The notes under the pieces were generated by a model, which saw nothing but the letters and a program-made list of their open reading frames with translations, did not search any database and had not been told where the DNA came from. The translations under genes were made by a program, and so were the position numbers. Below, piece by piece: positions 5,201 to 33,869 of a DNA stretch of 34,518 bases; position 1 is the first letter of the stretch; every line of letters starts with the position of its first letter. Source of the stretch: a virus; IMG/VR virus record IMGVR_UViG_3300021406_000030, positions 1 to 34,518 of that record; one strand, written 5' to 3'.

Positions 5201-5338
5201 CGTGTTTCCTGAAGACGGCAACGCAGCGAGGAAGTCAGATTGATTAGGGCTTACTGCCGTACATGTTGCAAGCGTGCAAGATGGCTGCGCGTAGAGAGCA
5301 GGTGAGACGAGGGCAAGGATGAGAATAAGTTTTTTCAT
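2258..5338 (-). CDS. Exported beta-helix fibre/adhesin, 1026 aa
   Basis: Start chosen at ATG 5338, giving a Sec signal peptide (MKKLILILALVSPALYAQ); it shares one base with the upstream TGA (TGATG), so translation is coupled. An in-frame ATG four codons earlier is a possible alternative. Residues about 105-445 look like a right-handed parallel beta-helix (repeated asparagine-rich turns, WDHNHV, FENNVYN, AYHNYITG) ending near TYPHPLVGG. Residues 549-618 resemble an InlB-like B-repeat and 626-702 a chitobiase/hexosaminidase C-terminal domain (TPVISPQSG, ATIHYTVDGTTPT). The C-terminus (about 900-1026) is another beta-sandwich of similar kind. The beta-helix suggests polysaccharide binding or cleavage, as in tailspikes. 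A virion role is inferred; the signal peptide is atypical for a tail fibre. Confidence 0.8.
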   Translation of the reverse strand: MKKLILILALVSPALYAQPSCTLATCTAVSPNQSDFLAALPSSGNTNSTVTVNIPSGTASWTSTISYAVPSAVTTLIIQGNTTVTCTGTGGQSSYACAAADNTIIEMNYATFGPMLNLTTNSSATSLLRITGITWEEGSVTIGQEPIIGIGGNGQIRWDHNHVNSTTGSGVGGTWVINYGNTTGVADHNLWDLSTCNGFPSPTCPNPGTNAWGAFNDIGDTSGSLGDGTYNNPTQWGSSQAIYFENNVYNGGASNDCYRAGFYVSRYNTMNDEYIPIQTHGTKSSGGPWRGCRGYEAYHNYITGPGGSQTGSGASGSKAGPAMVWGNTLANAAYYQFWEAATDRNGGDSAAEVNPPNGWGYCGTTVTNPSTGNPNGVGSAWDGNQPTITTGYPCLDGLGRGQTQQLMNNQVFPNRLNSATGTIAWPQQYLEPVYLWNNSVGTANYVLIQDLVTKNNRDYYYDQTAQSGSFTGAAGTGTGLLSARPTSCTAGPGGPYATSPGGESYGVGYFATDTNTLSVCIQSGNPGVWKNIYTPYTYPHPLVGGVTTYVLTTATSGSGTGTISGCAGNYAASAPYSCSVTATGGSTLTSVTGCGGSGTTTYAGTMPANACTVTATFTGGTPVAATPVISPQSGNYGRAQTATITDATAGATIHYTVDGTTPTTSSAVYSTPLNISSSTNIQAIATAAGFLQSATGQSIIDITSAIAVDSHCIAESNSNASCAPGQVFLHDTVVVLASDGNSCLGAPTDGVNTYNLVIAGADSANPSKAYIWVACNAAAGTPTVTLNGACGSNEWTNLHVFVLANTSTASTCWDTGPITQTLTNLSGSSTLSSGSPQLPSGNNEWVEGYAIPGVTTTTTATAGANYTIFDPLFVYQPAVPEYWLQTTATATNTPMTTTTAFDWVMVATAILPAGGATPACATPFQTGPNFSGTYNVPPYTLPLSVGFTSSTPGCTMHYTITAGNTTPAATCSSSTYSGSSSLSVTTTISVVACQAGFTSSSTSGGTWTIVGGGLVPGAPSLSVFIP

Positions 5339-5436
5339 CAGAATGTGCATGGACTTGCTACGTTTGTCGTGCCGTTGACGTTGAGATTGATTCCGCCCGT
5401 GGTTGCGACTTCGGGCGAGGTCTGGTTGATCGGCCA
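5313..5436 (-). repeat. Fibre-module direct repeat, copy 1
   Basis: This 124-bp block matches 10261-10384 at about 93% with no gaps; 5371-5436 is identical to 10319-10384. It spans the 3' end of a LamG gene, the TGATG junction and the signal-peptide codons of the following beta-helix gene. A second matching block (around 5971-5997 and 10919-10945) lies at the same 4948-nt offset, marking a duplicated module. Confidence 0.9.
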
Positions 5437-6111
5437 ATAGTATGGCATACTCCCACCGGGTATCTGAGGGCGGCCACACGCAGCAAAAACAGATGCATCA
5501 GTGGACGTTGGCGTTCCATTTAAGATGGCCATCTCCGACATTCGCCCAGCGCCAAAGAGAGATGAACCCGCTCTTGACATGACATAGAGTGTCTGGCTGG
5601 TGAAAAAACCTCCTGCTGTTCCGGTCGCCTGTACTGTCGCTGTCACCGATGATCCATCCACATACGCCGCGCACGAATTTGAACTGATGTTCCAGAAAAG
5701 CAGGTAACTATGCCAAGCCGCAGCAGATGGTTGAGCGATGGTGCAAATCAGGAATCCCGAAGTCTCTCTTACGGCATATTGAATGTTCCCGCTATACGCA
5801 GAACTATTCATATCCACAATGAACGCACCGGGATTGGAATTGGAATTCGTGGAACTCTCAAATGCCAGCAGGTCGTTGGTTCCCCATGCATTCCAGTAAG
5901 CGCGGAACTCAAGGGCAATCGTGCTTGTAGTTAATCCCGTCAGAGAGAGCGATGAAGCCGAAACCAGATAATCGCTTGTTCCGTTAAACTGACGAGCATG
6001 ATTGGTGGTTCCTGATGATGAAGTCGCTATCGCACCAGTAATAGATGGACCGGGGTTCTGAGCGACACAACAAGTAGCCGTCATCAAAACGATTAGTAGA
6101 GCAATTTTCAT
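5338..6111 (-). CDS. Exported LamG/concanavalin-like domain protein, 257 aa
   Basis: Start chosen at ATG 6111, which shares one base with the upstream TGA and begins a Sec signal peptide (MKIALLIVLMTATCCVAQ). The body is a LamG/Laminin_G_3-type jelly roll: [11 protein letters not shown] near the start, ALEFRAYWNAWG, a WHSYLLFWN strand, AAYVDG, and a YVMSRAG...GRMSEMAI closing strand. This family binds carbohydrates. The C-terminal 30 or so residues ([14 protein letters not shown] onwards) are nearly identical to those of the paralogue at 10286-11053. It immediately precedes the 1026-aa beta-helix gene, and the pair forms one of two duplicated modules. Probable receptor- or glycan-binding fibre partner. 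Confidence 0.8.
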   Translation of the reverse strand: MKIALLIVLMTATCCVAQNPGPSITGAIATSSSGTTNHARQFNGTSDYLVSASSLSLTGLTTSTIALEFRAYWNAWGTNDLLAFESSTNSNSNPGAFIVDMNSSAYSGNIQYAVRETSGFLICTIAQPSAAAWHSYLLFWNISSNSCAAYVDGSSVTATVQATGTAGGFFTSQTLYVMSRAGSSLFGAGRMSEMAILNGTPTSTDASVFAACGRPQIPGGSMPYYWPINQTSPEVATTGGINLNVNGTTNVASPCTF

Positions 6112-14510: not shown

Positions 14511-15605
14511 ATGAGCAACCTGCTTCAACAGGTGGCCCAGCCGCTTCAACAGATTACCACTTTTATTTACGGCCTTGTTGACCCAAGAACTGGACACGTT
14601 CGTTACGTTGGTAAATCTAACAAACCCACTGTTCGTTTGGGTCTTCATCTGATTCCATCTCAATTGAAAGAAACAACCCACAAAACCCGATGGTTGCGAC
14701 AACTTCTCGATGCCGGAGAAAGACCGCGTCTGATAATCCTTGAGAATGTCCCTAAAGTATCTTGGCCGGAATCGGAGAAGAAATGGATTTCTCACTATCG
14801 TAACCTTCCTAATTACCCGCCTCTTACTAACAGTACTGATGGAGGGGAAGGAGTCGAAGGGTACGTCTATTCTGAGGAGGAAAGAAAGAAGCGATCCGCT
14901 TCTCATCTTGGGCTCAAAATGCCTCCCGGTACCGGCAAGAAAATTAGTGAAGCGAATCGAGGTATACCTAAAAGCACTGAAGCGCGCATACATTTTTCTA
15001 GTGGACAAAAAAATCGTTGGCAAAATGCCTCTGATGAAGAGAAACAAAACATGCTTAAAAATCTTCGCAATCCGCAGAGCCACGAAAGAATAGAGCAAAG
15101 CAGGGTGCGCTCTAGAAATGCTCCTAGAATATCTAACACCACTTCTCAATATAGAAACGTCATTAGGGTTAAAGGGACAAAAGAATGGCAAAGACAGTGG
15201 CGCGCTGGATGCATAATTGACGGAAAACATATTTGCATCGGATTTTTTTATACCGAAGAGGAGGCTGCGAGAGCGAGAGATCGCTATGTACTCAAGCACA
15301 TCGGAGAACACGTTATTCTCAATTTTCCTCGTGCGGAATACGAATCCGATCCATGCAAAATAGTCGTCAGTAACGGGAAACACAGTCGCTCTCAAACGAT
15401 ATCCAAAAACAACGCTTCGGGATATAAAGGGGTAAGAAAGAACGGTAAAAATGGATGGACGGCGAGTATTAGTCATATGGGTACCCTCTATCGCCTCGGT
15501 ACACATCGAACTCGCGAGGATGCCGCTAGACGATGGGATCTTAAAGCCATCGAACTCTTCGGTGACTTGGCCGTAACCAATTTCCCTCGTGCGAGCTACG
15601 ATTGA
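14511..15605 (+). CDS. GIY-YIG homing endonuclease with NUMOD3 and two AP2 domains, 364 aa
   Basis: The only well-supported plus-strand gene; ATG 14511 follows CGGAGGT. Residues 18-100 form a GIY-YIG nuclease (IYG at 19-21, RYVG at 31-34, R42, E88 or so as metal ligand). Residues about 121-170 carry a NUMOD3 DNA-binding helix pattern (EERKKRSASHLG, KKISEANRG). AP2/ERF-type domains lie at about 212-273 (QWRAGCIIDGKHICIG, EEEAARARDRYV) and 302-359 (SGYKGVRKNGKNGWTASI, REDAARRWDLKAIELFG). Free-standing endonucleases of this kind cut a rival allele and spread themselves. It separates the adaptor gene from the small basic gene at 15618-15734, in the opposite orientation, as expected for a mobile intruder. 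Confidence 0.92.
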   Translation: MSNLLQQVAQPLQQITTFIYGLVDPRTGHVRYVGKSNKPTVRLGLHLIPSQLKETTHKTRWLRQLLDAGERPRLIILENVPKVSWPESEKKWISHYRNLPNYPPLTNSTDGGEGVEGYVYSEEERKKRSASHLGLKMPPGTGKKISEANRGIPKSTEARIHFSSGQKNRWQNASDEEKQNMLKNLRNPQSHERIEQSRVRSRNAPRISNTTSQYRNVIRVKGTKEWQRQWRAGCIIDGKHICIGFFYTEEEAARARDRYVLKHIGEHVILNFPRAEYESDPCKIVVSNGKHSRSQTISKNNASGYKGVRKNGKNGWTASISHMGTLYRLGTHRTREDAARRWDLKAIELFGDLAVTNFPRASYD

Positions 15606-15617
15606 CACGCCTCATCC

Positions 15618-15734
15618 TCACTGTTTAACAAACACCTTTTTCCGTGCGACCTTTTTAGGAACTTTCTGCGATCTTCCATAGATCGCCCGGAAGCTGGGGC
15701 TGCTGGCATACGTCTTCTTTACCCGATGCTTCAT
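15618..15734 (-). CDS. Tiny basic protein, 38 aa (MKHRVK family)
   Basis: ATG 15734 is preceded by AAGGAGT; stop TGA at 15618. About one third of the residues are Lys or Arg, including a KKVARKK tail. The N-terminus MKHRVK is the same as that of the 33-aa protein at 20572-20673. Its strong ribosome site and 10-nt spacing from the upstream gene support expression. The composition suggests nucleic-acid binding, for example a minor internal head or DNA-condensing protein; this is an inference. Confidence 0.6.
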   Translation of the reverse strand: MKHRVKKTYASSPSFRAIYGRSQKVPKKVARKKVFVKQ

Positions 15735-15744
15735 CGCGTACTCC

Positions 15745-15873
15745 TTACTTCGAGGTCAATTTGGCAAGGTTCTTGGTCTTCGTCTTGCCACCCTTCTTGT
15801 GTGCCCACTGCTTGCCCTTTGGCATGCATGCAACTGCAAGGTGAGCCTTCTTCTTCGAGGATTTCCGCGCCAT
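15745..15873 (-). CDS. Tiny Lys-rich protein, 42 aa
   Basis: ATG 15873 has an AAAAGGAG site 8 nt upstream and the stop is TAA at 15745. The product contains MARKSSKKKAHL and KKGGKTKTKN, with about 14 lysines. It follows a strong terminator-like hairpin and is tightly linked to the next tiny basic gene. A longer overlapping frame (15731-15973) was rejected because it lacks a ribosome site and ignores this one. Probably binds nucleic acid in the capsid or the host; no family known. Confidence 0.65.
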   Translation of the reverse strand: MARKSSKKKAHLAVACMPKGKQWAHKKGGKTKTKNLAKLTSK

Positions 15874-15912
15874 AACTCATCTCCTTTTCGGTTAGAACTA
15901 CGTTTCTGTTAA

Positions 15913-15958
15913 AACGCCCTCTGTAAGCTGCCCCAGTAAGGGACTCACAGAGGGCGTT
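15913..15958 (-). terminator. Intrinsic terminator-like hairpin
   Basis: AACGCCCTCTGT at 15913-15924 pairs perfectly with 15947-15958; three further pairs (one G-U) extend the stem to 15, and a small CCC/GGG hairpin sits in the loop. Read on the minus strand the stem is followed by TTTT. It ends the unit finishing with the 16013-16357 gene and precedes the Lys-rich mini-genes, which may be expressed by read-through or a separate promoter. Confidence 0.75.
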
Positions 15959-16012
15959 CAATTGTCTGTCCACCGGGAGAGGTAGTTTTAAACAGACCTT
16001 GTTAAAACCTCG

Positions 16013-16357
16013 TTACCACTGTCCACAGAATCCGCCCAGTTGAACCGTTTCTCCTGAAAGATTTGCTGCGGCAGCTACCTGCGTATTTGCGGTTCCACCA
16101 ACTGTGTTACCGGGTGCGTAGAGCCACATTACAGACCACGTAATGCGCTCACCCGATGCCGAAGGAAATGCAAGTACATAATAGTTTTTGCTGACCGACA
16201 ACACTCCACCGAACAACACATCAATAAACCGGCGATTGTTCTGGAGTGTGACTGGATCACCACCAGTGACGTAAGACGCAGGACCCGTCCCATAGCCAGC
16301 AAATGCTTGGCGATAGCCGATGTAGTCCGGGTACCCATTTACCATCGTGAGAATCAT
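16013..16357 (-). CDS. Hypothetical structural protein, 114 aa
   Basis: ATG 16357 follows AAGGAGAC. Beta-rich with aromatic strands (RFIDVLFGGVLSVSKNYYVLAF, broken by a turn; ERITWSVMWLYAPG) and a small C-terminal Gly/Cys end. It is 9 nt from the upstream decoration-like gene. A small beta protein next to a major capsid gene is often a head-decoration or neck component, but there is no recognisable family signature. Confidence 0.6.
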   Translation of the reverse strand: MILTMVNGYPDYIGYRQAFAGYGTGPASYVTGGDPVTLQNNRRFIDVLFGGVLSVSKNYYVLAFPSASGERITWSVMWLYAPGNTVGGTANTQVAAAANLSGETVQLGGFCGQW

Positions 16358-16366
16358 TGCGTCTCC

Positions 16367-17224
16367 TTAGTCTTGGATTACCATGCAGGCGTAGCCGAGC
16401 AGTGCCTTGAACAAGATGCCGTTCGCTGGAATATCGACCGCCAGTCCGATTGTCGAAATAATCGGCGAACCGGGTCCAGTTGTGGTTACTGTTCCGGGAT
16501 CTGTCGTAACAGCGTTCACATATGCAGGCAAGCTAGCTGTACCAACTGCGGATTTTGCCAGCACGGTCGCGAGGCCGAGTTCCTGAATGAAGGTGAAGTT
16601 TCCCGGAGTCGGAGCGTTCAGGAAGACCACCGGACGAACCGGGATAGCTGTCGGAATAGCCGCGCCAACCTGATCAGCGCTCGTCACAATGTTCGGTGTC
16701 GAATTCAGCTGCACCGCGAGCGTTCCCGGAGTTCCACCCAAAGCCGTGAGGCTGAAGGTCGGCACACCGACATAGCCGTATCCGCCGTTGAGCACTACCG
16801 GGTTTCCGCTGATCGTTCCGGCAGATCCAACAACGACCTGAATAACCGCACCCGCTCCACCGCCGCTGCCGACTGTGGCTGCGATTGTGTATGTGCCCGC
16901 CGTCTGTCCGGAACCTACGGTAATGGTCTGTACGGCCTGTACAAAGGAGCCCGCACGGAGATAGCCGACTGTTCCCGTCTTGACGTTCGCAGCGGTTGCA
17001 CCGGAATCAACTTGGACATAGCGATAACGTCCGGCGTGACACAGACCTATCGTAGATACGGAAAGCTGATTCGCTTCCTTTTCCGTAAGATCAAAGTAGT
17101 CGCCGACGTTCAATCCGCCAGTGTTGTACTGCTGACCGGTAACTGGATCGAGCAAGCCCGTCGCAGACGGAGAGTTCGCGTTATTGAGTCCACCCCAAAT
17201 CGGGATTATTTGCTGTTGCGGCAT
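16367..17224 (-). CDS. Probable capsid decoration/head-fibre protein, 285 aa
   Basis: ATG 17224 has an AGGAGAA site. The first 60 residues hold LLDPVTGQQYNTGG and a short helical stretch (FDLTEKEANQL). Residues about 95-175 carry a beta domain (GSGQTAGTYTI, NGGYGYVGVPTFSLT) of the same kind as the insertion in the adaptor-like protein at 13153-14436. The C-terminal part is hydrophobic and beta-rich (LATVLAKSAVGTA, GILFKALLGYACMVIQD). Its place directly after the major capsid gene fits a decoration or capsid-stabilising protein. The exact role is inferred. Confidence 0.55.
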   Translation of the reverse strand: MPQQQIIPIWGGLNNANSPSATGLLDPVTGQQYNTGGLNVGDYFDLTEKEANQLSVSTIGLCHAGRYRYVQVDSGATAANVKTGTVGYLRAGSFVQAVQTITVGSGQTAGTYTIAATVGSGGGAGAVIQVVVGSAGTISGNPVVLNGGYGYVGVPTFSLTALGGTPGTLAVQLNSTPNIVTSADQVGAAIPTAIPVRPVVFLNAPTPGNFTFIQELGLATVLAKSAVGTASLPAYVNAVTTDPGTVTTTGPGSPIISTIGLAVDIPANGILFKALLGYACMVIQD

Positions 17225-18556: not shown

Positions 18557-19204
18557 CTAAGCTGTCTTCGTTATTCCGACAACCTTCAGTGATTGTTCTT
18601 TTTGAAGTTTTCTGCGCTGTGCAGTTTGCAAACGGCGCTTTTCCATCCACGCCGGATCTTGAGATTTCTTAACGTGATAGCTGTGATGCCTTTGCTTTTT
18701 ATGTTCAGCCGCTTTTTGATGTTGGCGCTTTACTATCTCCTGCAACCTATCCCAAAGAGCTATGCAAACTGAATACGGTTCCGTATCAAAGGCCGGAGTA
18801 AGTAAATCCGTAACTTCGTCGAGGAAGAATCTAGCAGACGTACTATCAATCTGCGCCTTTCTACGAGCCGTAAGAAACGGATAGATACAACCTAAAAATA
18901 CCCGTGACCGATCCCCACAAAGTCTCCACTGATGAACTTCAAAATTACTGCCCTTCTTACCGACGCCGTTTTTATAAAGCGTTACCTTGCCACCAAACCA
19001 ATCGCGTAAACGATACAAAAGTTCGGGGTCCTTCTGAGAAACGCAAACGGTATACGATTTATTCCCACCACCCTTAGTGGAACAAGTACCTTCTCCTTCA
19101 TAGATACCCGCAGCCCATGCAACATCAATTGCAGTGGGAGGTTTCGTGGCATCAAGCTCTTTGCCACCACGGTTTCCACGAACGATGTAGTAATTTCTCT
19201 TCAT
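18557..19204 (-). CDS. LAGLIDADG-family homing endonuclease, 215 aa
   Basis: Residues 30-40 hold a LAGLIDADG-type motif (WAAGIYEGEGT), with acidic residues E36/E38 in the position of the catalytic acids. It is followed by beta strands (YTVCVSQKDPELLYRLRDWFGG) typical of the fold's DNA-binding saddle. Only one motif is clear, so it should act as a homodimer. The C-terminal 60 residues are Lys/Arg/Gln-rich and probably an extra DNA-binding tail. ATG 19204 follows AGGAGAAA. It is free-standing between scaffold and major capsid genes, the usual hiding place beside a conserved gene. Confidence 0.85.
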   Translation of the reverse strand: MKRNYYIVRGNRGGKELDATKPPTAIDVAWAAGIYEGEGTCSTKGGGNKSYTVCVSQKDPELLYRLRDWFGGKVTLYKNGVGKKGSNFEVHQWRLCGDRSRVFLGCIYPFLTARRKAQIDSTSARFFLDEVTDLLTPAFDTEPYSVCIALWDRLQEIVKRQHQKAAEHKKQRHHSYHVKKSQDPAWMEKRRLQTAQRRKLQKEQSLKVVGITKTA

Positions 19205-21103: not shown

Positions 21104-23206
21104 CTACGACTCTTTTACGACTCCACGAGGTTCACCACCGGCTCCGCCCTTTTGCGACAGGCGAGGTGGCTTTTGCCCTGTTGGTGGACGTCCGCCTTTC
21201 CCTCCTCCACCCCCTTTACCGCCACCCTTACCACCCTGCTGGTCGCCACCTTCGAGGATGGAGGGATCGATGCCTAATTGCTTCAACTTAACGAGAGCTT
21301 TGGCCTTGGCAACAATCGCCATAACCTGCAAATCAACTTCCTCATTGAAGTACTGTTCTTTGAGCGTAGTGCCTTCTGTCTGTCCCCAGTTGCTCACTTC
21401 AAGATTCGACATCACAAAGGACCACGGAAGTGGCGCTCCACCACGCTTCAGTTGAAGCATCAACATCTGCCGCTGCATGGCGGTAACCTTGAGAAGCATA
21501 TTCGGAACGGACGTGAGACGAAGCTGTCTTACCAACCACTTTGCTCTGGTAAGAGAGTCGTACATCGACTTTGTTTCTGGGTAGGTGCCGTTGATTAACT
21601 CGTCCGGCAAATGGCTTGGAACCATGTCCTGCGGGTTGTAGTCGAAAACTTCACGCGCAATGTTATCTGGCCCCACGTACTCGATCAATCGCTGCGTATC
21701 GAACCACTGCGGGATCAGATACTTCATTCTTTCGCCGACACGTTTGTTCCCTTTTTCAATACGCATCGCAATGCCCTTGGCAATTGGTCCGATAGACTCA
21801 ATTTGCTTTGTGGCATCATCACTGTTCATATTGATTTTCAGATTGGCGAGATTACCAACATCGTTCAACCCCAACTGAGCGAGCATACCTTCCTTGAGGT
21901 ATTTGAGAAATGCCCAGTTCTCGCTTCCGACTGTGACTTCTTCCGGCAACAAGGACTGAAAGCTTTTCTTGGGCTCACCGCCTGCTAGGCCGAGACGTAC
22001 ATCCTCTTCGAATATGTCAAAGTGCTCAATCTTCGTACCACCGTTAGTATCGAGGTCATACCCCATCGGCGGGTTAAGCCTTGCGGTAAGGACCTGATCC
22101 ACCTTACGCTCGTGTTTGCGGATCGTTGTCTCGATTGAAGAAACATCTCCGACAAGGGAGCGTCCACCCGGCTCCCACGGTACGTCATCAACGGTGTACT
22201 GAATTACCGGGATGCGCGGGTCCCAATCGAAGGCAGGACCGTCGTACATCGGCCTGTCCAACCCGTTCGATGAAATGATAAGGCGAAGGTTTGGGTACAC
22301 CCGGCAGTCCTCTGCCATAGCCCTACGCATGGAAGGCTGGCCATTTCTCATTCCTCCAAAAATCTCTTGTCCTACGTAAGGAACCTTGTAAAACCACGAG
22401 GTCCCCGGATCTCCCATTGGCAGTTCAAACCCGGTATTGTTGATCCTCATATCCCGGATAAACGTCCAGCGGATCTCGGTGTAGAGGTTGCCAAATGATT
22501 TTCCTTGATCGCTGAGTTCACCATAGCGCCACGACGCCGCAAAGTCCTGCCGCTTTGCCTGAATCAGCGACTTGTAATTGTTCATGCCTACAGTCTGAAG
22601 TTTCCCTTGAAATAATGGAAAACGACCATGCGCTTCGGCAATTGGCATGTAGTCGTAGATCGTGCAACTGTAGCAATCTTGAATATCGTTTGTTCTTGCA
22701 GGTATTTGGGTAGGAACAACATCTAGTACCCCGAGAGCATCGAATGTCATTTCTCGTGGACCGTAACCATATTCTGTCGGCCTGATCTTCGGCCATAAAT
22801 AGCCGATTCCCATCACTGTGGCATATTGCAAGACCTTCAGAATCTGGATTGGAAAATCGCTTTCGAGGTAGACGGCTTTGCTCACCTTAGTGAGCATCTC
22901 GGCGGTCTTCTTGTAGGTTGGAACGTCAGAGCCATATGTGGCAATTTCACGGACTTCGGCCAAAGTTGTGCAAAATTTATTTACCGAATATCGTAATTCA
23001 TTTGTAACTAATAAAGACCTGCTTTTGTCTTTAAAAATCCCATCAAAAACACGCAGATTGGCGGCAAGGTTCTTGTAACTTTTTTGGCCCTCTAAGTAGC
23101 CTTCGCCCTCTTGGATCTGGGACTCAATCCACCCAATCTTGGAGCTTGGCGAGGACTCAAAACTTGGGGCCTGCCAGAGTACCGTTTCTAACGTATCAAG
23201 GAACAC
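21104..23206 (-). CDS. Portal protein, 700 aa
   Basis: The length and helix pattern fit the large P22-like portals that form the DNA-entry dodecamer and seat the terminase. The start is GTG 23206: an in-frame TGA lies four codons upstream, and an ATG four bases upstream leads only to a 4-codon frame. Recognisable segments include an N-terminal wing (LRYSVNKFCTTLAEVREIA), a central domain with PGTSWFYKVPYVGQEIFGG, and a stem/clip region near 420-500. The last 60 residues are a Gly/Lys-rich low-complexity tail (GGKGGGKGGGGGKGG). Residues 421-460 have a gapless half-identical match in the Tat mini-protein at 25489-25758. A dedicated promoter precedes it. Confidence 0.85.
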   Translation of the reverse strand: MFLDTLETVLWQAPSFESSPSSKIGWIESQIQEGEGYLEGQKSYKNLAANLRVFDGIFKDKSRSLLVTNELRYSVNKFCTTLAEVREIATYGSDVPTYKKTAEMLTKVSKAVYLESDFPIQILKVLQYATVMGIGYLWPKIRPTEYGYGPREMTFDALGVLDVVPTQIPARTNDIQDCYSCTIYDYMPIAEAHGRFPLFQGKLQTVGMNNYKSLIQAKRQDFAASWRYGELSDQGKSFGNLYTEIRWTFIRDMRINNTGFELPMGDPGTSWFYKVPYVGQEIFGGMRNGQPSMRRAMAEDCRVYPNLRLIISSNGLDRPMYDGPAFDWDPRIPVIQYTVDDVPWEPGGRSLVGDVSSIETTIRKHERKVDQVLTARLNPPMGYDLDTNGGTKIEHFDIFEEDVRLGLAGGEPKKSFQSLLPEEVTVGSENWAFLKYLKEGMLAQLGLNDVGNLANLKINMNSDDATKQIESIGPIAKGIAMRIEKGNKRVGERMKYLIPQWFDTQRLIEYVGPDNIAREVFDYNPQDMVPSHLPDELINGTYPETKSMYDSLTRAKWLVRQLRLTSVPNMLLKVTAMQRQMLMLQLKRGGAPLPWSFVMSNLEVSNWGQTEGTTLKEQYFNEEVDLQVMAIVAKAKALVKLKQLGIDPSILEGGDQQGGKGGGKGGGGGKGGRPPTGQKPPRLSQKGGAGGEPRGVVKES

Positions 23207-23290: not shown

Positions 23291-23323
23291 TATCAAAAAG
23301 GAAATGGCGAGCCGAAGCTCGCC
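23291..23323 (-). terminator. Intrinsic terminator with UUCG tetraloop at the end of array A
   Basis: On the minus strand, 7-bp arms (23317-23323 and 23306-23312) enclose a TTCG loop closed by C-G, the extra-stable cUUCGg form. The stem is followed by ATTTCCTTTTT. It defines the 3' end of the RHH/RAMP-like transcription unit and lies directly at the last pentamers of array A. Confidence 0.85.
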
Positions 23324-24041
23324 ACTCCCACCATTGCCAAACCTTACCATGCCAAGCCAAGCCCAGCTACAACTCACCTCATCCGAACTCGGCTCACCCG
23401 ACCTTTCCACACCAAACACTACCTTGTCCGTCCATACCGTACCGAAGCGAGCAGTACCGTGCCGCACCGCAGCTAGCCTTTCCATACCGGCCTTGCGGCC
23501 CGTACCTTACCAAGCCATGCCAAGCACTACCAAAGCGATCCCCACACTACCCCGCCGAACCGGGTCTCGCCTAATTACCCAACCAAGCCACGCCCAATCA
23601 CACCGCAACTCGCCATACAACACCCCACCTGAGCGAACCAAACCCTACCGGTCATAATGACCCGGACCTCACCGCACCTAGCCAGACATCACCCGATCCT
23701 GTCTGAGCCTTCCTCACCGCATCTCACCGTGGCGCACCCGGCCTGACCACACCTCGCCAATTCGGGCCTTATCGTGCCACGTCCCAACTTAACTAACCAC
23801 ACCATGACTCGCCCGACCAGACCGTATCCCGACACGCCAGAACGTAGCTCGCCCCGCCCGACCTAACCGGCGTTTCCGCCCGTTCCATACCACACCTAAC
23901 TATGCCAAACCACTCCAAGCCTACAGCGAACCGGACCGAACCAAAACCCGCCAAACCAAGGACTGCCGTTTGCCACACCCTACCATGCCTAACCTTAGCA
24001 GACCTCACCATGCCACACCTTGACAAGACTTGGCGTGGCAC
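23306..24041 (-). repeat. Array A: ~736-nt degenerate pentamer array (NNGGY on minus strand)
   Basis: This is the only stretch over 300 bases without a gene. On the plus strand it reads as RCCNN units such as ACCTT ACCAT GCCAA; on the minus strand as NNGGY. The first block (23306-23490) holds 37 units in one phase, and the block 23666-23870 holds 41 units in one phase with C at position 3 in 40, a purine at position 1 in 39 and C at position 2 in 26. Other blocks are offset by a few bases, so at least five phase slips occur. Adjacent units are nearly always different, which rules out a simple microsatellite. It runs from 2 nt after the RAMP-like gene's stop to the UUCG terminator, so it is probably the 3' part of that transcript. 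Confidence 0.9.
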
Positions 24042-24042
24042 G

Positions 24043-24669
24043 TCAACGCAATTCAACAACTGAAAACTTCGTGACCTGAAATCTTCCAAATGATGGCCGG
24101 AAATCTCCAACGCCGACAATGCGACCCGCATACGACAATGTTTCATGCAGTAGGCGATGATCTATGTATTCCGGAAGAAGAACTTGCAGGCTGACACTGC
24201 ACTTCCAACCAGTCAACATCGCTGGACGCACGCGCGTAATTCCACTTCGCTGAATCACGACACGACGACGATCAAGGTAATCTGGTTCCTTTGCACCGAG
24301 AGAGCAAAGCTCTCCGATAGTGGCAATACCAGCCTTGAATAGATCCATCGCAGACTTGCGCGGCGAACGTGGATCTTGTTTGAACTTCGCGGCATGGATC
24401 ACTGACTGCCGAAAATATTCGGATGGAATAGCTACACGGCCCTTCTCATCACGGTACATATAACTTTCAATGTTGTCGGTTTTCTTTGCAGCAGATCCCT
24501 TCTTCGAGTTGGCTTTCTCTTCAATCGCATCGCACGACCAGCGATGAAATAAAACTGGCGCTGTGCCCTCGATGCTGCACTCGATCATGTAAGGAGATTG
24601 AATCTCAACGTCCACTTTTGCATCATTGGACGCATTGGAAAGAGCAGTTACAACTGACTTCGTAGCCAT
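24043..24669 (-). CDS. RAMP/Cas7-like phage protein of unknown function, 208 aa
   Basis: Start chosen at ATG 24669, with GAGGTGAGG just upstream; ATG 24699 lies inside array B. N-terminal strand IECSIEGTAPVLFHRW (30-44), a helix IPSEYFRQSVIHAA (81-94), a basic strand RRRVVIQRSGITRVRP (134-149) and a C-terminal glycine loop GRIVGVGDFRPSFGRF (182-197). The order strand, IP-x4-R helix, and a G-rich G-x-G-D-x-R-x3-G-R-F end resembles RAMP/Cas7-type RNA-binding folds. It also resembles a group of uncharacterised phage proteins with a TAP-V/L-L-F/M-H motif (recollection, not searched). No catalytic residues are evident. Flanked on both sides by pentamer arrays and following an RHH gene, it is the likely binding partner of the array. 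Confidence 0.75.
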   Translation of the reverse strand: MATKSVVTALSNASNDAKVDVEIQSPYMIECSIEGTAPVLFHRWSCDAIEEKANSKKGSAAKKTDNIESYMYRDEKGRVAIPSEYFRQSVIHAAKFKQDPRSPRKSAMDLFKAGIATIGELCSLGAKEPDYLDRRRVVIQRSGITRVRPAMLTGWKCSVSLQVLLPEYIDHRLLHETLSYAGRIVGVGDFRPSFGRFQVTKFSVVELR

Positions 24670-24694
24670 ATTCCTCACCTCGTTTTGGATTTTT

Positions 24695-24779
24695 GCCATA
24701 CCTCACCACACCGTGGATTGCCTCACCTCGGCCCACCAGAACTCACCATGCCTTGCCAGTCCATGACACGGCCTGCCGA
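24695..24779 (-). repeat. Array B: 17 pentamers between RHH and RAMP-like genes
   Basis: Seventeen consecutive units in one phase, position 3 being C (plus strand) in 16. It fills the gap between the RHH stop (24781) and the RAMP-like gene almost exactly, in the same orientation as array A. In the transcript it is therefore the leader of the RAMP-like gene. Confidence 0.88.
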
Positions 24780-24780
24780 G

Positions 24781-24930
24781 TTATTTTGGAAGTTTTTGCC
24801 TTTGGGCTAATTCCTGAACAGCACGTTCAATCACGCCTGTCTTAGAAAGTCCCAACAACTCGGAGAGAGCGACGATCCATTTTAGAGTTCGCTCTGTCAT
24901 CCGATATGCAACAGAAACTCTATTTGCCAT
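24781..24930 (-). CDS. Ribbon-helix-helix (CopG/MetJ-type) regulator, 49 aa
   Basis: ATG 24930 to TAA 24781. The sequence has the RHH layout: N-terminal beta strand NRVSVAYRM, first helix TERTLKWIVALSELL, turn GLSK, second helix TGVIERAVQELAQRQ. RHH dimers bind DNA with the paired strands and often repress their own operon. A perfect inverted repeat lies in the promoter just upstream, so autoregulation is likely. The gene begins only about 6 nt after the predicted -10 box and has no ribosome site, suggesting a leaderless message. It is first in the unit RHH, array B, RAMP-like gene, array A. Confidence 0.85.
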   Translation of the reverse strand: MANRVSVAYRMTERTLKWIVALSELLGLSKTGVIERAVQELAQRQKLPK

Positions 24931-24936
24931 AGATAT

Positions 24937-24965
24937 AATGTATAGAGTTTTTCTATACACGTCAA
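24937..24965 (-). promoter_or_regulatory. Promoter with RHH operator
   Basis: On the minus strand TTGACG (24960-24965) and TACATT (24937-24942) are 17 nt apart. TGTATAGA at 24939-24946 and TCTATACA at 24952-24959 form a perfect 8-bp inverted repeat with a 5-nt spacer, filling the gap between the boxes. A bound RHH dimer pair would block polymerase. The plus strand also contains TATAAT at 24934-24939. Confidence 0.75.
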
Positions 24966-24996: not shown

Positions 24997-25071
24997 TTGG
25001 TGATATAAGGCGTGGTGTGGCTGGGTAAGGTTCGGCGCGGCTAGCAGAGGTGCGGTGAGGTAGGAGGAGCG
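24997..25071 (+). repeat. Array C: pentamer array in opposite orientation
   Basis: About 15 in-phase units reading NNGGY on the plus strand (for example AAGGC GTGGT GTGGC). It lies beyond the RHH promoter and points away from it, so plus-strand transcription from that region would give the same G-rich repeat as arrays A and B. Confidence 0.85.
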
Positions 25072-25103: not shown

Positions 25104-25496
25104 TCAATGCCCTTGTTCATAACCTTCGCTGTGTAAATATTCTTCCCTGACTGTCTTCGACTTGTCATTGTCGAAGTGCTTGTCAAGGAAATATCTCATC
25201 GCATCACGATTGTAGGCATTTCTTGCGTTTGCCATTAAGTGTCTAATGTGTGATCGCAGTTCCGACCGCCACTGACCTTCAATCAGATTACGCTCTTCGT
25301 CCTTGATGCTCTCTTTAAAGGCATTGTATTTGCGGAGCCGATCCGACCAAACTTCGGCGTCATGAGCCGAAGCACAAATAATTTTCTCAAAACCGGGAGG
25401 TGCAGGAAACCTCTCTGGGAGACCCATACGGATCTCTCCCGATGTGCCGTTGTAGTAGTAGCAGATTTTTTTGCTTAATTGAGCGTTGTTAAGCAT
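25104..25496 (-). CDS. Hypothetical phage protein, 130 aa
   Basis: Charged, mostly helical protein with a short beta start (KICYYYNGTSGEIRMGLP), a central PPGFEKIICASAHDAEVWSDRLR segment and long helices (RSELRSHIRHLMANARNAYNRDAMRYFLDKHF). The start overlaps the Tat mini-protein gene by 8 nt, so it belongs to the same operon. It is the last gene before the array cassette. No family function is known to me. Confidence 0.65.
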   Translation of the reverse strand: MLNNAQLSKKICYYYNGTSGEIRMGLPERFPAPPGFEKIICASAHDAEVWSDRLRKYNAFKESIKDEERNLIEGQWRSELRSHIRHLMANARNAYNRDAMRYFLDKHFDNDKSKTVREEYLHSEGYEQGH

Positions 25497-26103: not shown

Positions 26104-26448
26104 TTACTGTCCAGATTCTGGTTTTCCCATCTTCGCCTGTTCTCTCGGATGATCTCTTAACCATTGCCGCGTGCGCTCGCCAATAATTTCATCAGACTCT
26201 TCCTCATCGAAGTTGGGATCGAGGGCATCAGTGATCGTTCTGCGTTTCGCTCCCTGCATCTTGCGCTCACGCTCCGCGTCCGTTTCGACTTTAGTCACGA
26301 CCGCTTCTCTCTGCTCTCGTGGCTGTGGCCAGTATCTAGTTCCGGCACGGCGTAATTCGTCACGCATACTTTCCATGGCGAAGGCTAAACGCTCGTGAGC
26401 GATCACGAGACGTTCGATCAATTCTTCGTTTGTCCAGAAGTCACTCAC
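26104..26448 (-). CDS. Hypothetical charged helical protein, 114 aa
   Basis: Begins with GTG 26448 behind GAGAGGT. The protein is helical and strongly charged (ERLVIAHERLAFAMESMRDEL, split by turns; ETDAERERKMQGAKRRT), with an acidic patch (DEEESDE) and a Pro/Gly C-terminus. A palindrome copy lies across the last codons before the TAA. No family recognised; possibly a packaging or assembly accessory. Confidence 0.6.
   Translation of the reverse strand: MSDFWTNEELIERLVIAHERLAFAMESMRDELRRAGTRYWPQPREQREAVVTKVETDAERERKMQGAKRRTITDALDPNFDEEESDEIIGERTRQWLRDHPREQAKMGKPESGQ
26110..26122. repeat. 13-bp palindrome, site 3 (12/13 match)
   Basis: TCCAGATTCTGGT, one base from the consensus at the last position. 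It lies in the final codons (coding PESG) of the 26104-26448 gene. Confidence 0.65.
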
Positions 26449-26458
26449 CAGCTACCTC

Positions 26459-27103
26459 TCAATTGTTCGCCAGAAATCCAAGATCCAATGCCGCAACCCC
26501 GCCCGCCTTCATTCCTTTTGGCGGCGTGACATCGGGCACCACTGGCGTGGGCTGCGCGTATTCAGGATACGTCTGCGGCATTTGCGGTGGTCTGTACGTG
26601 CCGTTGGCTGCTGGAGCCGCAGGCATTCCTACCGGAGAGTGACCACCGAGGGCCTGAATGACGCGCACAAGTTCCTGAATCTCGGCTTCCTTCCGGGCAA
26701 GCTCAACAACTAAATCGGCTTTTTCTTTGATTGCCTTCGGAAGTCTCTTCTCCGCGTAAGACGACGCAGACCGAAGTTCTTTCGGCATTGGCTTAGCGGT
26801 TTTCTTCTGTGGTTTTTCAGGATGGAGCGCTACGCTTGTCTCTTCGTCTTGAAATGCGGCGGGGAGAGTAACTGGGTGCTCGACGGTAGCAAGGATGTGA
26901 GTTCCCTCACCTTCCTCTAACGACTCACCAGCGATACAGGCGGGGCAGTGCTTGGGTCCAGATTCTGGACTTTCGGCTACTTCGACCGCTGCGATGGCGG
27001 GTTGATCGGCCCCAAACTTATTTAACCACCGCCGCTTTGCCGCTTCCTTCGCTACCGCAGAACGCTCCTCTTTGGTGAGCTTAGGCTTATCACTTTTTGC
27101 CAT
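26459..27103 (-). CDS. Hypothetical protein with Pro-rich tail, 214 aa
   Basis: ATG 27103 with AGGAAG upstream. N-terminus is basic and helical (KPKLTKEERSAVAKEAAKRRW). A possible metal-binding pair CPAC lies near residue 53. The middle is acidic to basic low complexity, then a coiled coil (KEKADLVVELARKEAEIQELV, split) and a Pro/Tyr-rich tail (PPQMPQTYPEYAQPTP). No catalytic motif; probably a structural or assembly accessory. Confidence 0.6.
   Translation of the reverse strand: MAKSDKPKLTKEERSAVAKEAAKRRWLNKFGADQPAIAAVEVAESPESGPKHCPACIAGESLEEGEGTHILATVEHPVTLPAAFQDEETSVALHPEKPQKKTAKPMPKELRSASSYAEKRLPKAIKEKADLVVELARKEAEIQELVRVIQALGGHSPVGMPAAPAANGTYRPPQMPQTYPEYAQPTPVVPDVTPPKGMKAGGVAALDLGFLANN
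26957..26969. repeat. 13-bp palindrome, site 4
   Basis: Perfect copy, extended to a 15-bp dyad by G at 26956 and C at 26970. It lies inside the 26459-27103 gene, where it codes for PESG. Confidence 0.75.
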
Positions 27104-27127
27104 TTCCGCTTCCTCTCCCGTGATTGA

Positions 27128-27580
27128 TTACTCGCCAACTGCGCCGACACCCGCTAGCGCTTTCCGGGCGTACTTCCGACGTCCTCTTGTTGAGGTATCG
27201 GCCTCCTCGGTTGGCTCTGCTTCCTCGGTGACCTCTTCATTGTTCGCTTTTATCTGTGCCCTAACAGCGTCCAAGTTTTCTTCACGGGGGATGACGATTG
27301 TTTCGATGATCTCAGACTTTTCAACCTGTTCTGGAGGAAGAGAATCCAATGATCTCTTTACTTCTGACGGCAAGGTGATCGGGACTTCCATCTCAATATG
27401 AACTGTTCGAACGGCAAAGCAGTCCAGTTCAATTTTTACCTTCCCTTGAAATCCGCCACTGTATCCGTCTTCTTTCCTAAGACTGCAATCCCGACGCAGA
27501 AATTTGCGCACTTCACCCACAACATACTCGATAGGTTCCCATCCGCTCAACGGATCAGTGAAATTCTTGACATCTGGCAT
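27128..27580 (-). CDS. Hypothetical protein, 150 aa
   Basis: ATG 27580 follows AAAGGAGAC. A short helix (EPIEYVVGEVRKFLRR) is followed by beta strands (QGKVKIELDCFAVRTVHIEMEVPI, split) and a long acidic, disordered region (EEVTEEAEPTEEADTS) ending in a basic tail (RGRRKYARKAL). Array D lies in its leader. No family recognised. Confidence 0.6.
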   Translation of the reverse strand: MPDVKNFTDPLSGWEPIEYVVGEVRKFLRRDCSLRKEDGYSGGFQGKVKIELDCFAVRTVHIEMEVPITLPSEVKRSLDSLPPEQVEKSEIIETIVIPREENLDAVRAQIKANNEEVTEEAEPTEEADTSTRGRRKYARKALAGVGAVGE

Positions 27581-27628
27581 TTACGTCTCCTTTTTCGACA
27601 TTTTGATTCACTGAGAGTCCCCGGAAGG

Positions 27629-27718
27629 ACCTCGCCAAACCTTACCGCACCACACCGAACCTGACCAAGCTCTACCCGACCGCACCACGCCGAACCGGGC
27701 CTAACCTCACCTTACATT
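27629..27718 (-). repeat. Array D: 18 pentamers in a gene leader
   Basis: Eighteen units in one phase (plus strand ACCTC GCCAA ACCTT and so on), position 3 being C in 16. It is in the same orientation as arrays A and B but 2.6 kb from the cassette, between the mini-gene at 27740 and the start at 27580. No terminator follows it. Confidence 0.88.
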
Positions 27719-27827: not shown

Positions 27828-29984
27828 CTAGTCATCCCCTCCTACTGAGATTGCATTGAGCATACATCTTCCCTCATTCGGGTTAACTTTTTTCTTATAA
27901 GGCATTGCATAACGTTTCTGGGACCGTTGAGCTAAGTCGTCATACGTATGCATATTCAGGTAACTCTGCGCAGCAGCGCGGATACGATCATCATGTTTAT
28001 TCTTCTGATGCGTCATTTTGTCACGACCACCGTCCACGAGTTGCCGTTCCAGAGTTTTCAACTCTTCAATCAGCCATTTTGACTGCGGAACATACCATCC
28101 GCCGTTAACCGCCTCAACGAATCGGTCCATAAGAATCGGCACGGTCGTTCGGTTGGAATACCAGCCTTCTCTGTGGCGGTTTTCATCCTTGATCTTTTTG
28201 CCGTCCAGACGACCGGGGGTATGGTGATAGTTGAACCCCATAATCTTTAACTGGTTCTGGCAGGTATCGCCCGGTCCTTCTATCTGCTCAATGGAGAACT
28301 TCACACCACGCGGATCTCGCGACTTCTTTCCGTACCATGTCGCCATCGCAGCAAGGAACGGAACCGCTTGCGCGGGGCTAAATTTATTAGAAGTTAGCTC
28401 GGCACATTGAATATCGCAGCCAGATCCGCTCGCCACGTTCGTCATCGAAGCACAGAATCTGTCTTCGTCTTCTTTGCCAAGTCCATGTGCCGTATCAACT
28501 CCGCAACTATAGATCGCTCGTCCCTGTGGCGGCTGAAATACGAGCAACTTGTCCATTGTGTAGGCTTCTACTTCCTCATCAATGTAGAGTAGCGGGACAA
28601 GTTCCCAGTCGTAACGTTCATCGCGGTTTGATCGCCACACGAGCGGGATTATGTCCATGTACTTATCGATCAATCCCTCATCTGGATAAAATTCTTCTCC
28701 GATAGAGTGCCCGATGATTGCATAGGCTTGGAACGGATTCCTGCGGGTCTTGATGATATTCGGACCAGTGGTCTTGATCTCGTATATTTGGTCTTCGAGA
28801 TCGAATATTACCTCTTCATCAAACACGCTATCGTGAACGCCAGTCAGAGCTTCAAAGTCATCTGCGGGAAGACGAGCAGCGTGCTGTTGGAGAGAATGAC
28901 GTTCTTTTGCCTCGATGAATTCACATTGCCAATACCATTGCTGTTCAAGTGGAACGCGATAGTTGGCACCGACGACCTTCGAGAGATAATCCGTATTGCG
29001 GATATACGACTCACACTTCTTGATGTGAACTTTGGTTGCGTCCAAACGCCGCTCATAGAATCCCGGAGGCACTGGGTGCGTTCTAATCCAGTCTGTCTGT
29101 GGATATAGGTCAGTAGCGAGAGGCCAAGAAATGAAGATGGGCCTCATACGAGAGTTGGGCCATGACTTCTTAGAGTTTCTCCAGAAATCCGGGAACCATC
29201 CAACATTTCCAGATCCAGTTCCTTCAAACACCATAAACAGGTTTTTATTCGAGTGAACGGCAGGCAACAACCCCTCTTCGATCACATTATGTGGATTCGG
29301 AATCAAACCAATCTCTGAAATATGAATGCAATTCGGAGTTTTTCCTTGCGCAATACCTTTCGGTTGCATACCCGATTCAATCGAGAGACGCGAACCATTT
29401 GCAAAACTGTTTTTCGGAGTCTTAACGGGAATCAACCACCATGGGCATTCGTTGTATGCCGTATCGAGCTTGATCTTAATTTCGTCTGACTTTTCTTTCT
29501 GAACGGATGCCATGACAGCGAGAAGGTTGGGGATGAACATCATTCTATGAATAAACATCAACGCAACCAAGGTCGTGATCCCGACTTGGCGGGCTTTCAG
29601 GGTGAGAATCTGAATGCCTGCCTGTTGCTCCTCAAGATCCGCCACAACAGAGTCGAATACGTCTTGTGATTTGCGATTCTTAAATTTAGATACCTGTCCA
29701 CCCTCATCAATCACGTAAGCATAATTATCACGCCAGTAGTTGTAGTCCAAAGCACAGAGAACCTGCTCATTTTCCATCCATCGATAGATTTCCTTGCGGA
29801 GCCGCTCCGTCATCGGCCTTACTTCTTTAATCCACGATCCCTTACTGTTGCTATCCAGAATGACAAGAGATTTCACACGCTCTGTAAAGTCGCGCACTTC
29901 ATCAAATGAGTGGTGAACCGGCATCCATCCGTTTTCGGCTGCAAATTGATCGAGGTTATTTAAGATGATGCGCTCGCTATACAA
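27828..29984 (-). CDS. Terminase large subunit, 718 aa
   Basis: The ATPase half has a Walker A-like KARQVGITT at 130-138, Walker B NCIHISE ending at E224, and a coupling motif FEGTGSG near 253-259. The nuclease half has GVDTAHG with D497 as first metal ligand and HDD at 664-666 as the last, the RNase-H-like set of headful or cos packaging motors. The start is a TTG at 29984 placed 7 nt after a GAGG site and 2 nt after the nuclease gene's stop; no in-frame ATG is available before residue 21. It docks on the portal to pump DNA. Confidence 0.9.
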   Translation of the reverse strand: MYSERIILNNLDQFAAENGWMPVHHSFDEVRDFTERVKSLVILDSNSKGSWIKEVRPMTERLRKEIYRWMENEQVLCALDYNYWRDNYAYVIDEGGQVSKFKNRKSQDVFDSVVADLEEQQAGIQILTLKARQVGITTLVALMFIHRMMFIPNLLAVMASVQKEKSDEIKIKLDTAYNECPWWLIPVKTPKNSFANGSRLSIESGMQPKGIAQGKTPNCIHISEIGLIPNPHNVIEEGLLPAVHSNKNLFMVFEGTGSGNVGWFPDFWRNSKKSWPNSRMRPIFISWPLATDLYPQTDWIRTHPVPPGFYERRLDATKVHIKKCESYIRNTDYLSKVVGANYRVPLEQQWYWQCEFIEAKERHSLQQHAARLPADDFEALTGVHDSVFDEEVIFDLEDQIYEIKTTGPNIIKTRRNPFQAYAIIGHSIGEEFYPDEGLIDKYMDIIPLVWRSNRDERYDWELVPLLYIDEEVEAYTMDKLLVFQPPQGRAIYSCGVDTAHGLGKEDEDRFCASMTNVASGSGCDIQCAELTSNKFSPAQAVPFLAAMATWYGKKSRDPRGVKFSIEQIEGPGDTCQNQLKIMGFNYHHTPGRLDGKKIKDENRHREGWYSNRTTVPILMDRFVEAVNGGWYVPQSKWLIEELKTLERQLVDGGRDKMTHQKNKHDDRIRAAAQSYLNMHTYDDLAQRSQKRYAMPYKKKVNPNEGRCMLNAISVGGDD

Positions 29985-32497: not shown

Positions 32498-32844
32498 CTT
32501 TCTCCTTTTACTATCAACTTTACTCGACGCATAGCTGCATCGATCTGGCTGAGAATATCTTCACGAAGATTGACTGATTGCGCTAGAAATGGACGTGGCC
32601 TTGAAACCAAATCAGCTACCGCTCCTTGTACCGCCCATCGCGCATGTTTATAGGAACCACGGGTGTCAGAGATCACCTGTCCGCTATTGTTTGTGAAGTA
32701 GACGTTGTAGGCATACGGTTGATTGACGCCGATCCGCGTCACCCATCCCACAACTTCATTTGTTTTCTCATTGATGTACGCAGCAAAATATACAAACCCG
32801 GAAACTTTCCCTAATGGGAACATGTTGATCCACTTGTAGTTCAT
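32494..32844 (-). CDS. Hypothetical protein, 116 aa
   Basis: Start chosen at ATG 32844 because it overlaps the glycosyltransferase stop as ATGA; a longer in-frame start exists. Beta strands with aromatics (FVYFAAYINEKTNEVVGWV, AYNVYFTNNSG) are followed by a helix (DILSQIDAAMRRVKLIVKG). No family or motif recognised. Confidence 0.55.
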   Translation of the reverse strand: MNYKWINMFPLGKVSGFVYFAAYINEKTNEVVGWVTRIGVNQPYAYNVYFTNNSGQVISDTRGSYKHARWAVQGAVADLVSRPRPFLAQSVNLREDILSQIDAAMRRVKLIVKGER

Positions 32845-33869
32845 GCAAGCCACTCTTTCCACGCTGCAAGCCCGACACGTACATATTTATCGAGCACAGC
32901 CTTTCCATCTGCTGCCGCGCGTGGGTCATTCAAGAGAGCCCGCCCAACTCGGGCAACATCAAGCGCATCATCAACCGAAGCCTTCCAATGTTCTGGTGCC
33001 CAGTCAATCGCCTCAGATACAACTGATGGAACGCCTTCGGCGATGCCGTCAGATGTACACATGTTGAAACTTTCGCTATATGAAGGTTGCAATAACAAGT
33101 GCATTGTCGCAACTCTTCGCCTAAAAACCGGCCATGGTGCCCACGGATTTTCCTTCAACTCTACGCCGGGCAAATCGCGATACATTGCTCGAATAGAACT
33201 CAGTACAGTTTGTCCCCCACCTTCCGCTCGTCCACCACAGATCCAGAGTTCCATGGGATCACGCATAGCTCTCGCAATCTCCAGCGCCGCAGCAGCGCCG
33301 GTCATCATATTCTTCAGTGGACGGATAGCACCAAACATGCCAATCCTCAGAGTGCCACCACGATAAGGTGGACGACCTTGCGCGCTAAGGTAATCGAGAT
33401 AGTACAGATTAGGCAGAAATTTACAATCGACTTGAAAACACTCTTTGATCCACTCACAGAAGCGAACGGAATTACCACCAATATTGAAATTAAAAGTGTT
33501 CCGTTCAATCGCCATATAATCTTTAATAAGATCCACGGCATTGGTATCAGCCTGAAGGAAACCGACGTTTGAGTGACAGTTGATCGCCAGCTTCACTTCT
33601 GGATAATCTCTGGAAAAATTGCAGACGATTTGCGTAGGAATCCATGGTGCAGAAACCACGATATGGGTGACATCTGGAAATTTCTTGGGAATGCCCGCTA
33701 GCTCCACGGGTTGAACGAATGGGGCAACGGTCGCTCTGACGCCATTCGCTCTCAACACCTTGGCAGTATTGGCAGCAGCTACGCCCAAACCGATGTGAGA
33801 GATACCAGCGTGTGCAGCGAAATTCTTATAACAGAGAATCACATGGATGGGCGTAGGCGGAGTATTCAT
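32841..33869 (-). CDS. GT4-like glycosyltransferase, 342 aa
   Basis: The C-terminal half has the GT-B donor-binding pattern: RIGMFGAIRPLKN at about 175-187, ELWICGGRAEGGG near 207-219, and QPSYSESFNM...IAEGVPSVVS near 261-285. The N-terminal half (IHVILCYKNFAAH, AGISHIGLGVAAANTAKVLRA) is the acceptor domain. Members transfer sugars from activated donors. In a phage it could decorate host surface glycans to block rivals, modify virion proteins, or modify phage DNA; none is shown here. ATG 33869 with AAGGAAA upstream. Confidence 0.8.
   Translation of the reverse strand: MNTPPTPIHVILCYKNFAAHAGISHIGLGVAAANTAKVLRANGVRATVAPFVQPVELAGIPKKFPDVTHIVVSAPWIPTQIVCNFSRDYPEVKLAINCHSNVGFLQADTNAVDLIKDYMAIERNTFNFNIGGNSVRFCEWIKECFQVDCKFLPNLYYLDYLSAQGRPPYRGGTLRIGMFGAIRPLKNMMTGAAAALEIARAMRDPMELWICGGRAEGGGQTVLSSIRAMYRDLPGVELKENPWAPWPVFRRRVATMHLLLQPSYSESFNMCTSDGIAEGVPSVVSEAIDWAPEHWKASVDDALDVARVGRALLNDPRAAADGKAVLDKYVRVGLAAWKEWLA

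Follow-up and report, generated by a model that had tools for sequence, protein, structure and literature searches.

The locus and its pentamer arrays

The DNA considered here, referred to below as the window, is a viral sequence of 34,518 nucleotides (positions 1 to 34,518 of IMG/VR record IMGVR_UViG_3300021406_000030) in which four arrays of 5-nt units of the pattern GGYNN lie between the genes for the portal protein and the large terminase subunit (Table 1). Arrays A, B and C crowd around vipr, a gene for a RAMP-like protein; array D stands apart, filling one third of the 247-nt gap that separates the terL stop (27828) from the orfD start (27580). Both of these genes are on the minus strand, and the sense of array D is that of all the neighbouring genes. 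The initial annotation had described this tract as 18 phased pentamers at 27629-27718, in a gene leader, 2.6 kb from the cassette and oriented like arrays A and B. The phasing is confirmed, with CC spaced at 5-nt intervals on the plus strand between 27630 and 27711, but there are 17 units and the array ends at 27711, a few bases short of the position first given. The placement ahead of orfD, the distance (2.56 kb to array C; 2.93 kb to the vipr start) and the orientation, which HMM segmentation bears out and which is opposite to that of array C, all stand.

Table 1. Features of the window between portal and terL
Feature	Position	Strand	Remarks
portal gene	21104..23206	-	P22_portal, E 4e-5; adjoins array A
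intrinsic-terminator-like hairpin	23292..23322	-	GGCGAGC-UUCG-GCUCGCC, then U-rich stretch; closes array A
array A	23304..24044	-	about 149 GGYNN-like units; 3' end decodes to the start region of sister-phage portals
vipr	24043..24699	-	RAMP-like (Cas7-fold) protein; phrog_4652, E 1e-18
array B	24693..24777	-	17 degenerate GGYNN units; overlaps vipr start
candidate vap	24781..24960	-	59-aa DNA-binding-like protein; phrog_3887 transcriptional regulator, E 1.6e-5
array C	25009..25063	+	11 GGYNN units; orientation opposite to A, B and D
orfC	25104..25496	-	adjoins array C; homolog of the predicted targets of C
orfD	27128..27580	-	150-aa protein of no known function; directly downstream of array D
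own allele of the D target site	27459..27494	+	guide-identical strand; 16/34 over 17 units
GC-rich hairpin	27601..27634	-	GAGGUCC-UUCC-GGGGACUC; found by folding; overlaps the last D unit and lies just beyond
array D	27627..27711	-	17 GGYNN units (HMM segmentation); predicted detached VIPR guide (vrRNA-type) tract
terL	27828..29984	-	large terminase subunit, phrog_5989, E 8e-13; upstream of array D

Read in minus-strand sense, units 1-9 of array D are GGTGA GGTTA GGCCC GGTTC GGCGT GGTGC GGTCG GGTAG AGCTT and units 10-17 are GGTCA GGTTC GGTGT GGTGC GGTAA GGTTT GGCGA GGTCC. Its run score is 14.5; among 60 shuffled versions of the window with dinucleotide content preserved, the average was 3.6 and the best value 5. 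Tandem Repeats Finder, run on the window, did not detect array D because GGY alone is conserved and the NN positions are almost uniform. The hairpin that follows the array is weak (-16 kcal/mol over a 60-nt stretch, z -0.86), and could possibly form the 3' tail of a predicted D guide; the terminator-like hairpin of array A has -24.7 kcal/mol and z -4.9. A search for a promoter of array D gave none that was convincing, and no conserved tail was recognized. Two other kinds of element were considered and set aside: a hammerhead-interspersed array (no Rfam match) and a CRISPR array (no repeats with spacers). Neither a CRISPR array nor a multi-subunit cas operon was found in the window, which gave no cas or PADLOC matches.

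Vipr and its predicted guide arrays

A phage-borne system named VIPR (Viral Interference Programmable Repeat) has been described in a 2026 preprint (PMC13142463). In the published code, the GGY of each unit is held by the Vipr protein and the NN pairs with DNA, one target base being skipped between successive dinucleotides (PMC13142463). Published guides have 9-16 repeats (YNNGG/GGYNN) with hypervariable NN; the guide RNA ends in an invariable structured 3' tail, a vap accessory gene lies near vipr, the skipped base falls mostly at the codon wobble position and the targets are in competing mobile elements (PMC13142463). The system of SUSP1 was shown experimentally to be RNA-guided, and its guides are directed at satellites rather than at alleles of the genes beside them (PMC13142463).

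The RAMP-like protein of the window has no Pfam family. A profile built from 55 of its relatives matched one PDB sequence, the SUSP1 Vipr 36pp (E 3e-12), and its predicted structure (pLDDT 87) retrieves Csm3/Cas7 subunits with Foldseek, that is, a RAMP fold with a Gly-rich loop. All 80 vipr relatives that we fetched from viral contigs are accompanied by GGYNN arrays, and 154 of the 156 arrays at these loci run in the sense of the vipr gene. The only two that run opposite to it are at L016 18498-18607 (-) and L036 9777-9901 (-), the collected loci and contigs being designated by L numbers; they resemble array C of the window in this respect. Nine arrays lie more than 1 kb away, which makes a detached array such as D a rare but real occurrence. 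The consensus over 3179 units (G 0.96, G 0.88, Y 0.91, then two almost uniform positions) matches the published GGY/NN guide consensus (PMC13142463). Judged from its sequence, the RAMP-like gene is the vipr of a VIPR system, which makes array D, by the company of its pentamers, a predicted guide of the vrRNA type. The 59-aa DNA-binding-like ORF next to array B, our candidate vap, is kept beside vipr in L002-L005.

The initial annotation had taken array D for a copy of the repeat found around the RAMP-like gene, perhaps functionally tied to its protein, and would have doubted this if such tracts were common in the host genome without that gene. Within phage contigs, the arrays at all 80 vipr loci uphold the tie, and so do the terL-related phage contigs, in which arrays occur only where a vipr of the window type or a divergent one (L087-L089, L094) is encoded; the remaining terL-related contigs, including a 134-kb sister contig, have neither array nor vipr. 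The divergent form is exemplified by L088 (Vipr at 15661-16308, phrog_4652, E 1e-13; array at 16824-17033). In all four of these contigs the divergent gene and its array take up the same position ahead of the portal gene, which suggests that the types of Vipr have been swapped at a single locus. A vipr gene is also present in the sequenced Phage DSL-LC04 (L113, OR003939.1) at 4995-5612, where it is annotated as a "helix-turn-helix transcriptional regulator"; immediately upstream, at 4706-4958, are GGYNN arrays.

The locus shares with VIPR the Vipr RAMP, guides made of GGY/NN pentamers, the one-base skip, skips at the codon wobble and targets in competing phages. It differs in that array D is about 3 kb from vipr and in the leader of another gene, and in the size of its arrays: array A has about 149 units, and D with 17 is one above the published range, 12 of them taking part in its best match. 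With the Cas7/Csm3 filaments of class 1 CRISPR-Cas it has in common the RAMP fold, the Gly-rich loop and, by analogy, an RNA-guided filament, but 5-nt phasing with an NN code replaces the contiguous 6-nt pairing.

Decoding of array D

The dinucleotides of units 1-17 of array D are, in order, GA TA CC TC GT GC CG AG TT CA TC GT GC AA TT GA CC. The first nine of them, with one free base between each, were used as a query against the whole viral contig collection and gave a single exact match across all viral contigs. The match runs on unasked through three more units, so that 24/24 bases agree over units 1-12, and then breaks; units 13-17 do not fit the sister orfD allele. The site is in L082, the 134-kb sister-phage contig, inside the homolog of orfD and opposite to its coding strand, and all of the skipped bases are at codon position 3. 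L082 and the window are 77% identical in terL and 44% identical in the orfD homolog. When units 7-8 were left free, the pattern had only two matches, in L082 and one other contig, both of them in orfD homologs. With the unit order reversed there were no matches in the viral collection, and skips of 0, 2 or 3 bases gave none in the collected loci, where 25 shuffles of D reached at best 20/24. Units 9-17 used as a seed found no match in the viral collection. The sole match to a bacterial chromosome, in Paracoccus (L104, D units 3-11), fails to extend (20/34) and is taken as chance.

The phage's own copy of the site scores 16/34 over the 17 units, and the best score of the 12-unit guide in its own flanks is 14/24, which is background; no target of D above background was found in the phage's own genome. 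The natural 24/24 match is an independent confirmation of the VIPR code in uncultivated phages that are distant from the tested systems. We consider it very probable, from the decoded letters, that array D is a detached VIPR guide directed against the orfD allele of a related phage, an attack that its own divergent copy would escape.

Could array D instead be a decayed or drifted array that has no present function, and its decoded match a product of chance? Its detachment from the cassette and the one G missing from unit 9 might be taken that way, but GG is intact in the other 16 of 17 units and decay is heavier in arrays A and B. Moreover, both matches of the gapped pattern fall in homologs of the adjacent gene and the reversed order has none, so that we give this idea practically no credence. 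The initial annotation's suggestion that D is a seed from which arrays spread finds no support either, as its NN letters are not copied from the other arrays.

On the preferred reading, that of a guide against a rival allele, D would be transcribed from the minus strand, either together with terL or from a promoter of its own, and then presumably processed. A filament of Vipr would hold the GGY positions, leaving the NN dinucleotides to pair with DNA with one base skipped. During co-infection the complex of Vipr and the D guide may then repress the rival's orfD and spare the divergent copy of its own phage. The linkage of the guide to the allele that escapes it would be the reason for the position of D.

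A search for orfD homologs by peptide patterns recovered only the sister contig, and terL relatives were therefore used for the orfD comparison. In the seven relatives compared (L002, L084, L085, L088, L090, L095, L096), the block formed by orfD and the genes at 26459 and 26104 (window 26104-27580) lies upstream of terL; in the window it lies downstream of terL, and array D occupies the junction at which the relatives carry a gene for an HTH regulator upstream of orfD. In this single case, the block together with D looks like a module of guide and escaping allele that has moved.

Predicted guides and the alleles of neighbouring genes

Array D is not alone in matching a homolog of the gene beside it. 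We compared the homologs of 18 window genes with each array of the window and found a clear excess over shuffles for D/orfD, C/orfC and A/portal and a weak one for A/vipr; all the pairs in excess are adjacent. Array C fits the orfC homologs of L085 and L086 at 19/22 and, in the collection scan, those of L107 and L110 at 20/22, compared to 15/22 for its own allele. In the 18-gene test, the homologs counted for C comprise L107 and L110, both picked up with the code of C itself, and L085 and L086, which were not. Of the seven matches to the array C pattern, two fall within orfC homologs; the other five (L106, L108, L109, L111, L112), which do not, are regarded as chance. The 3' end of array A decodes to the start region of the portal gene in L002 (22/24) and L086 (20/24); unlike those at the orfD and orfC homolog sites, which are at position 3, the skipped bases here are not in the wobble frame. 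A fit of array A units 0-13 to L100 (21/24) is treated as unproven, the null reaching 20. For array B, targets sought among the collected loci and the homologs of window genes were not found.

For a broader view, 2392 distinct 12-unit guides drawn from all arrays were scanned against 3.2 Mb. Matches of at least 21/24 numbered 24 with a skip of one base, 1 with shuffled guides and 2 each with skips of 0 and 2. We then counted as neighbour matches, in the 80 loci, those that score at least 20/24 and fall in the homolog of any gene lying no more than 1.5 kb from the array. Such matches form 23 clusters, which come from 8 arrays and in 20 cases lie in another phage, compared to 0 to 4 (mean 1.9) in eight shuffled sets and none with skips of 0 and 2; the collected loci are centred on vipr, a bias for which the shuffles control but which they do not remove. 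At 21/24 or better the clusters number 8 versus 0.1 shuffled, and a stricter homology test, in an earlier version of the analysis, gave 23 versus 0 and 0. A skip of 3 is unusable as a control, its neighbour matches being alignments of one array with homologous ones that share its 5-nt phase. Only 8 of the 164 arrays have strong neighbour matches in other phages. Among the individual cases, the array of L002, which is beside its portal gene, fits portal codons in the sister contig, L090, L086 and the window, and the portal of L002 itself differs at two of the target codons; the array of L067, beside its vipr, fits vipr genes of other phages, and L041 and others show the same relation of array to neighbour homolog.

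These counts bear on the proposal of the initial annotation that array D may be a site through which the RAMP-like protein acts on the transcript downstream, regulating or marking it, and more generally on the idea that the arrays are tracts of RNA or DNA to which Vipr binds, with no guide function, so that the transcript they belong to is marked or controlled. The trp RNA-binding attenuation protein, TRAP, reads leader triplets (GAG) phased every 4-5 nt, and the 5-nt phased leader motif does recall its sites. However, the window's protein is a RAMP and is unrelated to TRAP, and the variable letters here carry target information: they decode to neighbour homologs with a skip of one base only, not with skips of 0 or 2 or after shuffling, and the code of D fits another phage's orfD allele, with its own allele unmatched. 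Therefore the TRAP-like, transcript-marking reading is rejected as highly improbable, the more so as experiments have shown RNA guidance in the related SUSP1 system (PMC13142463).

A closer competitor is that D is indeed a VIPR guide but one that autoregulates its own downstream gene, the sister match then dating from an earlier allele shared by both phages, with the phage's own gene having diverged since. Array D is located in the orfD leader, as autoregulation would have it, and three other guides fit a gene of their own locus at 20/24 (L002 11180 (+), L007 9757 (- strand coordinate) and L026 6151 (+)), which possibly represent self-targeting or autoregulation. As 3 of the 23 neighbour clusters are in the array's own locus, some autoregulation may occur. 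For array D we nevertheless think it improbable, as its own orfD scores at background and yet a homolog only 44% identical is matched at every base; furthermore, the guide of L002 has a better fit to portals in other phages than to that of L002 itself.

Returning to guides that attack a rival allele, these would be safe only if linked to the allele that escapes them, and therefore they should be found beside the homolog of their target. The same linkage is seen in marker exclusion by the free-standing homing endonucleases SegF, SegG and MobE of T4-like phages (PMC2988022), in which an element adjacent to a gene attacks a relative's allele and its own allele escapes. The difference is that an RNA guide (predicted) and repression (which we infer) would here take the place of a nuclease; neither Vipr nor the candidate vap matched any nuclease family, and array D encodes no protein. 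Perhaps the VIPR guides of this phage group are, with their neighbours, linked pairs (D/orfD, C/orfC, the end of A/portal), that is, selfish RNA-guided modules of allele exclusion that can move between phages, with D marking one that has moved out of its original cassette; we hold the chances of this generalization to be even. It suggests answers to two questions, what keeps a phage from attacking itself and what determines where the arrays lie, both of which are outside the preprint's main text. Detached guides and guides fitted to sister alleles of their own neighbour genes are likewise not mentioned in that main text (PMC13142463), relative to which both are new. Since guides can stand alone in the leaders of other genes, scans confined to vipr cassettes will miss them.

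The window also has two genes that resemble homing endonucleases, at 14511-15602 (+) (GIY-YIG, E 2e-4) and 18560-19204 (-) (LAGLIDADG_3, E 5e-4), both matches being just below the Pfam cut-offs; the phage may therefore carry classical allele-attacking elements besides VIPR. At 32844-33869 (-) there is a gene for a "GT4-conflict" family glycosyltransferase (E 2e-6).
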